Shown here piece by piece: positions 1,633 through 3,672 of a stretch of DNA of 64,000 bases. The position numbers and the translations under genes are program-made. The notes under the pieces were generated by a model. It saw nothing but the letters and a program-made list of their open reading frames with translations. It made no database searches and was not told the DNA's origin. The stretch spans positions 310,001 through 374,000 of the forward strand of contig JAPWKH010000033.1 of assembly GCA_028283605.1 (NCBI GenBank). The letters run 5' to 3'. Origin of the DNA: Arachidicoccus sp. GTDB taxonomy: Bacteria > Bacteroidota > Bacteroidia > Chitinophagales > Chitinophagaceae. Position 1 is the stretch's first letter, and each line of letters starts with the position of its first letter.

Positions 1633-1860
1633 TTATTTCTTGATAGAATCTTTAACAGCTTTAGCTGTAGAATCTATTGTTTTTGCAGCAGAATCTGCAG
1701 TAGCTTTTACAGAATCAGCAGCAGCTGTTGCTGTAGCTTGAACTGAATCCGCAGCAGCATTTGCAGTAGAGTCAGCAGCTTCAGCAGCTGTAGAACCACC
1801 GCCACAAGATGTTAATGCGATGCCTAAACCTAATACGGTAACAAAGAATAACTTTTTCAT
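1633..1860 (-). CDS. Small Ala/Asp/Ser-rich repeat lipoprotein
   Basis: A 75-residue protein with a lipoprotein signal peptide whose lipobox is L-T-S-C (Cys at residue 19). The mature part is almost entirely an imperfect repeat of the type A-D-S-x-x-A/K with no aromatic residues and ends in Ile-Lys-Lys. The composition predicts one long helix. Small size, lipid anchor, heptad-like repeats and a C-terminal lysine recall the layout of Braun's lipoprotein, but the sequence is not homologous by eye and this role is only a guess. It has its own terminator and faces away from the ECF gene at 2010. Confidence 0.75.
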   Translation of the reverse strand: MKKLFFVTVLGLGIALTSCGGGSTAAEAADSTANAAADSVQATATAAADSVKATADSAAKTIDSTAKAVKDSIKK

Positions 1861-2009
1861 TTTTGTTTAATTTTAATTTTTATAAAAATTTCTATAGTTA
1901 ATACTGAAATAAAAAAAAGGTAACCTATCATTTTTCATTTTTTTTTAAAAAATATTTTAGCACTGTTTTTGGGTTACTTTTACGCACTTTTAGAATAAAA
2001 AGAAGATTT

Positions 2010-2582
2010 GTGAAATCAGAAAGAACAGAACAGGAACTGTTAGATGGATTGGCAAATAACGATACCGGCGCAATTGAAACTATTTATGCAAATAATTTCA
2101 ATACGATTTTATCTCTTGTGGTTAATAATAATGGATCGTATGACGATGCAAGGGATATATTTCAGGAAGCAATGGTAGTGTTATATGAAAAAGTAAAAAC
2201 GGGAAGTTTTGCATTATCAAGCCAGCTAAAAACTTATCTGTATGCCGTGAGCAGGCGGCTATGGTTAAAAAGGCTCCAATTGCATGGAAAATATTTCGTG
2301 TCGTCAGAATTTGAAATAGATGAAAGCAGTTTTTCGGCTACGGAAGATATTGCTGATGCAAAAGAAAAAGATGCGGCGTACGAAATAATGGAGGTGGCTT
2401 TAAGTAAATTGGGCGAACCATGTAAAAGTTTATTAGAATCTTTCTACATCCATAAAAAGGGAATGAATGAATTGGCAGATATGTTCGGATATACCAATAC
2501 AGATAACGCCAAGACACAGAAATATAAATGTTTGATGCGCTTAAAGAAAATATTCTTTGCGCAATATAAAATAAAGGAGTAA
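2010..2582 (+). CDS. ECF-type RNA polymerase sigma factor
   Basis: A 190-residue sigma-70 family protein with region 2 (around residues 20-90, including the D-A-R-D-I-F-Q-E-A element) and region 4 (around 120-185). The GTG at 2010 is chosen because no in-frame ATG precedes region 2. The next gene begins four bases after the stop, so the two are surely co-transcribed. That gene encodes a membrane protein with an anti-sigma-like N-terminus, its likely partner. Region 4 is divergent: the usual E-I-A helix is replaced by N-E-L-A-D-M-F. Confidence 0.9.
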   Translation: MKSERTEQELLDGLANNDTGAIETIYANNFNTILSLVVNNNGSYDDARDIFQEAMVVLYEKVKTGSFALSSQLKTYLYAVSRRLWLKRLQLHGKYFVSSEFEIDESSFSATEDIADAKEKDAAYEIMEVALSKLGEPCKSLLESFYIHKKGMNELADMFGYTNTDNAKTQKYKCLMRLKKIFFAQYKIKE

Positions 2583-2586
2583 AACC

Positions 2587-3672
2587 ATGAGCGAGTTTTA
2601 TTTAACGGAAAGTATTGAAAGATATATCAACGGCGAAATGCTTCCGGAAGAAAAAGCATATTTCGAGCAAATGCGCGCGCAAAATCCTGAACTTAACCAA
2701 ATGATTGCGGAGCATCGTTCCTTTACTCATACACTTTCCTCTTTCGCAAATAATAAAAGTTTCAAAGCTGCATTAAACGATATTCACAATAGGCTTGTGG
2801 AGGAAAATGTAATTCCTTCCAAAGAAGACGGCTTAAAAATTACGTGGTGGCAGCGTTACAGAAAAATTACCGGCATTGCTGCTTGCATTGCAGGCCTCAC
2901 AGCGCTTATCATCAGCGGTGTTATTTCTTTCTTTACACCGAATAAAATAAAGATCGAGCAATTAAGCCGGCAGGTAAATGAATTGCAAAAGACACAGGCT
3001 TTTCAATCTTCAAAAATTACAGAGGTAACCAAAATGCCCAAAAACGCTGTTGTTACAAGCGGCGGCTCTGCTTTCCTTATTGATGGAGAAGGTTATTTAG
3101 TTACTAATGCGCATGTATTAAAAGGTTCTCATGCAGTTGTAGCCAACAACGACGGGCACGAATTTAATACCGATATCATATTTGTAGATAATACAAGGGA
3201 TTTGGCTGTTTTGAAAATTACAGATAAAGATTACAAGCCTTCACGTATTATTCCCTATGACATAAAAGGCGCGGAAGAAGATTTGGGCACCGATGTTTTT
3301 ACGCTCGGATACCCGACCAATGATGTTACTTACAACAAAGGTTACATAAGCGCACTAAAAGGATTCAACGGAGATACAAGCACTTTTTCAATTTCATTAT
3401 TGGCAAATCCCGGCAATTCCGGGGGGCCGGTGTTCAACAGGAACGGCGATGTGATAGGCATTCTAAGTACGCGCGAAGCAAATGCGCAAGGCGTTACTTT
3501 CGTTATAAAATCGAAAGAGGTTTTCAAAATGCTTAAACAATGGCGCGATACCGACTCAAGCGCAATAGGAAGAATCAGCGTATCCAACAGAAATAATTTG
3601 AAAGGATATAACAGAGTTGAACAAATCAATAAATTATCGAATTACGTTTTTAATGTAAAAGCGTATAATTAA
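2587..3672 (+). CDS. Membrane-anchored trypsin-like serine protease with anti-sigma-like N-terminus
   Basis: 361 residues. Residues 1-90 resemble the cytoplasmic N-terminus of Bacteroidota anti-sigma factors (I-x-x-Y-x-x-G-E-M-x-x-E-E, then an acidic helix). One transmembrane helix lies at about 94-117, then a short coiled coil (120-140). Residues 150-325 form an S1C/HtrA-type protease with a complete triad: His176 in TNAHVL, Asp205 in RDLAVLKI and Ser278 in GNSGGPV. No PDZ domain follows. The protease should sit in the periplasm while the N-terminus faces the sigma factor encoded four bases upstream. A combined anti-sigma and envelope-sensing protease is inferred from order and topology, not shown. 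Confidence 0.85.
   Translation: MSEFYLTESIERYINGEMLPEEKAYFEQMRAQNPELNQMIAEHRSFTHTLSSFANNKSFKAALNDIHNRLVEENVIPSKEDGLKITWWQRYRKITGIAACIAGLTALIISGVISFFTPNKIKIEQLSRQVNELQKTQAFQSSKITEVTKMPKNAVVTSGGSAFLIDGEGYLVTNAHVLKGSHAVVANNDGHEFNTDIIFVDNTRDLAVLKITDKDYKPSRIIPYDIKGAEEDLGTDVFTLGYPTNDVTYNKGYISALKGFNGDTSTFSISLLANPGNSGGPVFNRNGDVIGILSTREANAQGVTFVIKSKEVFKMLKQWRDTDSSAIGRISVSNRNNLKGYNRVEQINKLSNYVFNVKAYN

Follow-up and report, generated by a model that had tools for sequence, protein, structure and literature searches.

Within a 64,000-nucleotide stretch of the genome of Arachidicoccus sp., a soil bacterium (hereafter the window, meaning the whole stretch of DNA that was analysed), an ECF sigma factor gene directly precedes a gene for a 361-residue fusion protein, in which an anti-sigma-type N-terminus, a membrane helix, an S1C protease with an intact catalytic triad and a conserved C-terminal tail are carried on one chain. 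At the level of sequence, the two genes are linked throughout the relatives, and they are accompanied by a conserved pair of promoter-like motifs and by a divergent gene for a small lipoprotein-like protein. The reading that we favour, with a probability of roughly 0.6, is that the locus encodes an autoregulated envelope-stress ECF sigma factor held by a membrane anti-sigma protein whose S1C domain starts or gates its release. The features of the locus are as follows.

1633–1860, minus strand: divergent small lipoprotein-like protein (open reading frame of 75 aa with an Ala/Ser/Asp-rich tail)
1898–1925, minus strand: promoter-like motif facing the divergent lipoprotein gene, the same as that before the sigma gene (sequence match)
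1972–1999, plus strand: promoter-like motif before the sigma gene (sequence match)
2010–2582, plus strand: ECF sigma factor gene (190 aa, GTG start)
2587–3672, plus strand: fusion gene (361 aa, ATG start), comprising the anti-sigma-type N-terminus, membrane helix, S1C protease and C-terminal tail
2587–2868, plus strand: N-terminal helical domain, the proposed sigma-binding part (residues 1–94; profile comparison, helices in the model)
2875–2931, plus strand: membrane helix (approximately residues 97–115; hydropathy), starting with a conserved hydrophobic-Ala-Ala triplet (97–99)
2944–3027, plus strand: putative helical periplasmic stalk (residues 120–147; low-confidence model)
3052–3510, plus strand: S1C protease domain (approximately residues 156–308; His176, Asp205, Ser278; Trypsin_2 and fold matches)
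3613–3669, plus strand: conserved C-terminal tail (residues 343–361; alignments, helix plus strand in the model)

Architecture of the two proteins

The product of the sigma gene, with its length of approximately 190 residues and its regions 2 and 4, belongs to the ECF group. Its match to TIGR02937 (residues 22–180, E 1.4e-14) lies over the family cut-off, and that to Sigma70_r2, the Pfam model of region 2, is barely over its own. No separate Pfam match was returned for region 4; a sigma-4 motif is invariant in an alignment of 23 linked ECF proteins. The fusion gene follows on the same strand after 4 bases, and its product contains a single hydrophobic segment, near residues 97–115, which bears out the description, given in an initial annotation of this DNA, of an ECF gene just ahead of a protein with one membrane helix.

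The same annotation had recognised an HtrA-type protease with a full His176/Asp205/Ser278 triad, and this was confirmed by family match, by fold and by conservation in relatives. Trypsin_2 is matched at residues 160–292 (Pfam, E 7e-24), and the top NCBIfam match of the fusion is to the Do/HtrA family (residues 109–333, E 3.2e-25, under the cut-off). The folds closest to the protease domain are those of HtrA1, DegS and DegQ, and its sequence matches also include MucD, AlgW and DegP-like proteins. The three catalytic residues are invariant in 29 aligned sequences and are present in all 83 distinct full-length relatives that were fetched, which rules out a degenerate protease for the fusions. With its trypsin fold and His-Asp-Ser triad the domain is a member of the S1C/HtrA group. 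A C-terminal PDZ domain is usual in DegS, DegP and DegQ. In the fusion, the place that PDZ holds in DegS-type proteases is taken by the conserved tail; PDZ was found neither by Pfam in the window protein nor, across 47 relatives, in the 25 families matched most often. An S1C protease with this tail is also the final part of longer proteins (L142–L159), near which no such ECF gene was found in the fetched upstream stretches; MORN repeats are present in 4 of the 10 scanned. Of 18 protease-plus-tail proteins of this other build that were chosen, 16 retain the triad and 2 lack it.

The set of 83 relatives comprises a first group of 29 (L004, L006–L008 and L010–L034, the ECF gene of L015 being cut by a contig end), 26 more distant proteins from four families (L035–L060) and 28 obtained through a search of the class (L108, L110–L112, L116 and L119–L141); 17 of the loci L097–L118 are repeats of earlier genomes.

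Linkage to the sigma gene and identity of the N-terminus

An ECF gene lies immediately upstream of the fusion gene in 82 of the 83 relatives, the exception (L123) being at a contig edge. In a family sample of 117 genomes both genes occur in 110, and there they are adjacent and on one strand in every case (5–113 bases between matched ends, median 11), so that the pairing is not due to chance; a cognate ECF gene in the same operon, as the ASDI class demands, is thus found in 110/110. Six family genomes, three of them at least 95% complete, lack the full-length fusion and also give no ECF match at or below E 1e-20, and one (G046, 79% complete) has a fusion fragment only. In a class-wide sample of 395 genomes, 59 genomes from ten families were counted by eye as having a near-full-length fusion match; ECF linkage was looked at in 52 of these 59, and the gene pair is present in nine further families of the class. 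The initial annotation had suggested a search of Bacteroidota for the same domain order beside an ECF gene, and had named homologues without a linked ECF gene as grounds for giving up its proposal. The pair recurs in ten families, and no such homologue appeared in the family sample or, the contig edge of L123 aside, among the relatives.

The protease without this N-terminus behaves differently. No such ECF gene was found in the fetched upstream stretches (156–2052 bases, at least 671 bases in 17 of the 18) of the 18 chosen protease-plus-tail proteins that do not have the N-terminal domain, nor was one linked to a protease-only protein (L061). An ordinary HtrA protease that happens to stand beside an unrelated ECF gene was therefore rejected, since linkage follows the N-terminal domain (110/110) and was not seen for the protease alone (0/18 chosen, in upstream stretches of limited length).

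Direct assignment of the N-terminus to a family failed, in that searches of Pfam, NCBIfam and PDB sequences returned weak or spurious matches only. The fusion matches NCBIfam anti-sigma models at E 0.01 and 0.23, 3 of the 47 relatives scanned match zf-HC2 at E<=0.1, and no solved anti-sigma structure gave a sequence match. Related ECF genes were instead screened for in 28 genomes picked as fusion-free, 17 of which matched, giving 28 loci. At several of these the ECF gene is followed by a protein in which one membrane helix joins a short N-terminal domain to a different periplasmic part; other related ECF genes lack such a partner, among them those of L064 and L066, which have a YceI-like gene (named by eye) downstream instead. 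Alignment with hhalign of 45 fusion N-termini against those of 11 ECF-linked membrane proteins (L063, L067, L069–L073, L082–L084 and L089) gave a probability of 97.6% (E 3.2e-12), as against at most 0.7% for reversed and eight column-shuffled controls. The N-termini of the FecR-type proteins of the same genome did not match that of the fusion (9.9%). Of six comparison proteins scanned, four gave matches to anti-sigma models of NCBIfam (best E 1.6e-5, all under the cut-off), and four to TPR-type models. The anti-sigma label, already attached to this region in the initial annotation, is accordingly kept because of profile comparison and gene linkage, and not from the family libraries alone, where matches are weak. 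On these alignments, the simplest reading is of one Bacteroidota anti-sigma scaffold with exchangeable periplasmic modules, in which the protease appears to be a swapped-in module because the N-terminus is homologous to those of ECF-linked proteins with other periplasmic parts. In family f10 (L115, L116 and L118) the N-terminal domain is shorter by approximately 40 residues at its start, and the ECF gene is still linked.

By this homology the N-terminus would bind the sigma factor. The two proteins were modelled as one joined chain, a modelling device, with a mean pLDDT of 87.8 and a pTM of 0.55 and no interface score. Confidence for N-terminal residues of approximately 59–80 was greater in the presence of the sigma factor (blocks of 97 and 96) than in the fusion modelled alone (86 and 74), which is only a hint of a sigma contact there because alignments and block limits differ between the two models.

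A conserved promoter-like motif and a divergent lipoprotein gene

The motif GGTTAC-N14-17-(T/A/G)(A/C/T)AT(A/T)A precedes the sigma gene at 71 of the 73 loci examined (missing from L053 and L139) and also in the reverse-facing orientation in 47, and 67 of the loci have a small divergent lipoprotein-like gene. This set omits the window, repeats and L097–L118 (with five new genomes among them), and also L010, L015, L017, L027 and L123, where the upstream sequence is too short or there is no ECF gene. By comparison, the 28 fusion-free loci of related ECF genes have the motif once, the reverse motif never and a divergent lipoprotein gene twice, and the motif arises in 3 of 1460 shuffled sequences. 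The lipoprotein-like protein of the window weakly matches a PG1828-family lipoprotein (E 5.3e-7, under the cut-off). In 72 loci, namely relatives and the locus itself, the sigma start codon lies 1–25 bases (median 12) past the motif end and is GTG in 44; this closeness suggests that the sigma mRNA may have almost no leader.

A strict form, GGGTTAC-N15/16-GTATTAA, gave 165 matches in the 117 family genomes versus 15 for the motif read backwards, and is present in 90 of them. The genome of the window contains no match to the strict form, and the relaxed form is not enriched there (3 matches, versus 15 for the backwards control); its two matches in the window are equalled in 8 of 100 window shuffles. 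The count within this one genome is uninformative on its own, and the case is made by conserved position together with the excess of strict matches across the family.

Twenty strict-motif sites away from the sigma gene were chosen among the matches listed. Eight of these (L195, L197, L199, L207 and L209–L212) lie ahead of a small AMPK1_CBM-type protein, so assigned by Pfam for L209 and L210 and by eye for the others, and six (L193, L194, L196, L198, L204 and L205) precede a secreted-looking protein of 137–146 aa, for which the one example scanned had no Pfam match. Two more stand before a protein of 48–49 residues, one before further copies of the lipoprotein gene, and three before other genes or none. 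The AMPK1_CBM-type proteins show no visible signal sequence and are glycogen-binding-like proteins within an apparent envelope-stress regulon. Near the sigma locus of one genome (L208, genome G098) there are two lipoprotein genes on the same strand, each with its own strict motif. As the genome of the window has no strict motif and no AMPK1_CBM-like protein was found in it by one search, run without a positive control, its own regulon may be small.

Proposed release of the sigma factor and relation to known systems

In the proposed mechanism the resting state would have the sigma factor tethered to the membrane by the N-terminal helical domain. On an envelope signal the protease domain would become active and could cut the stalk of its own or a neighbouring subunit, or otherwise expose the membrane helix. 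An RseP-type protease would then cut within the membrane near the conserved hydrophobic-Ala-Ala triplet, a ClpXP-type protease would degrade the freed N-terminus, and the liberated sigma factor would transcribe its own operon and the divergent lipoprotein gene. Sigma binding, the direction of control, self-cleavage by the protease domain and the RseP and ClpXP steps are all inferred. A98 and A99 follow a hydrophobic residue in 83/83 relatives (43 Ile, 33 Val and 7 others), whereas among 67 membrane-like segments in the window 5 have such a triplet within their first ten residues, a background that takes in spurious open reading frames. In the published account of RsgI, XAA motifs are described as turning into ClpXP signals following RseP cleavage (PMC12203970). 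The genome of the window has one M50 protease gene. Its FecR-type anti-sigma candidates have, by eye, similar Ala pairs, and the triplet is therefore not special to the fusion family.

We prefer this explanation because the genes are linked in 110/110 family genomes and 82/83 relatives and are absent together from six; because the N-terminus is homologous to that of other ECF-linked membrane proteins, four of six of which weakly match anti-sigma models; because the triad and the hydrophobic-Ala-Ala triplet are universal among the relatives, the latter well above its background, and an M50 gene is at hand; and because motif and lipoprotein gene mark 71 and 67 of 73 loci, versus 1 and 2 of the 28 control ECF loci. 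Against it we count the lack of a confident anti-sigma family or solved-structure match, the shortened N-terminus of f10, the joined-chain pTM of 0.55, and, in the genome itself, a relaxed motif without enrichment and an absent strict motif. A more specific version can be put forward only tentatively: the anti-sigma protein, conserved in ten families and unnamed in the libraries searched, would itself act as the site-1 protease; its switch would be the divergent lipoprotein, or the envelope fault that is reported, and the sigma factor would transcribe the genes of both proteins.

A close architectural likeness is to RsgI9 of Clostridium thermocellum (PDB code: 7sjy), which likewise has a cytoplasmic anti-sigma domain, a membrane helix and an outer S1C domain on one chain (PMC12203970). 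RsgI9 is described there as an orphan of the sigma-I system, with no sigma factor of its own; it is of Gram-positive type, and besides its S1C-NTF2 ectodomain has a self-cleaving periplasmic domain as a distinct part. The fusion, by contrast, is paired with an ECF gene. The ECF partner, and the short helix between membrane helix and protease, place the fusion outside the RsgI anti-sigma-I group. RsgI9 is thus a partial precedent for the architecture, and because of it an S1C ectodomain on an anti-sigma protein cannot be called new. It also lends itself to another interpretation of the fusion, as an anti-sigma protein whose S1C domain is mainly a ligand-binding sensor, with other proteases, or a conformational change, setting the sigma factor free. 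The S1C domain of RsgI9 is described as protease-like and cellulose-binding (PMC12203970; 7sjy), and the genome of the window encodes further trypsin-fold proteases that might make a first cut; a pure binding domain would have no need of the triad kept in 83/83 relatives, and we consider this interpretation improbable, if a serious one. Less likely again is that the protease serves as sigma-controlled, membrane-anchored quality control, cutting other envelope proteins and taking no part in release, while the N-terminus feeds back negatively. The motif on the operon itself, the intact triad and the occurrence of the tail-bearing protease in 18 chosen proteins without the N-terminal domain would all suit such a role, which by itself leaves unexplained why sensor and enzyme share one chain in every linked case examined. 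That the protein is a co-transcribed membrane protease only, with no sigma binding by its N-terminus, would fit the want of a confident family or structure match and the shortening in f10, but is very unlikely given the linkage in 110/110 genomes, the homology to other ECF-linked proteins and the absence of such an ECF gene beside the 18 proteins without this N-terminus.

The preferred reading, of a sigma factor held and released by the fusion, resembles the RseA/DegS branch of the sigma-E system of Escherichia coli in having an ECF sigma factor, a membrane anti-sigma protein and an HtrA-type protease of DegS fold. RseA and DegS are described as separate proteins, DegS with a PDZ domain (PMC8103513), in contrast to the single PDZ-less chain seen here. 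The ASD-like TPR-type proteins of Bacteroidota (L069, L070, L073, L084 and others) share a related ECF, a homologous N-terminus and one membrane helix; their periplasmic part is TPR-like (4/6 tested) or of another kind and contains no protease, and the motif is found at 1/28 of the control loci. The Dma proteins of Bacteroides thetaiotaomicron are likewise Bacteroidota membrane anti-sigma proteins with a cognate sigma factor; compared by description only, they are dual membrane-spanning proteins for which the cited account names no protease (PMC13088901). A literature search confined to open-licence papers found no ECF anti-sigma protein fused to an S1C protease, nor an ECF-paired, triad-intact, PDZ-less form with the motif pair and lipoprotein. 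New here are the promoter-like motif conserved ahead of the sigma gene and the divergent small lipoprotein.

In a survey of ECF genes, class I anti-sigma domains were reported beside 6% of those from Bacteroidetes, versus 32% for all phyla, and control of the remaining Bacteroidetes ECFs was left open in that account (PMC7406223). The locus represents an ECF group that is widespread, keeps the same type of membrane partner throughout, one which the libraries searched do not recognise as an anti-sigma protein, and offers a promoter motif that can be put to use. Should the protease prove to cut its own chain, a single polypeptide would combine sensing with the first cut and the binding of sigma, and the recurrence of the gene pair with its own promoter-like motif and lipoprotein gene makes such one-piece stress signalling testable.
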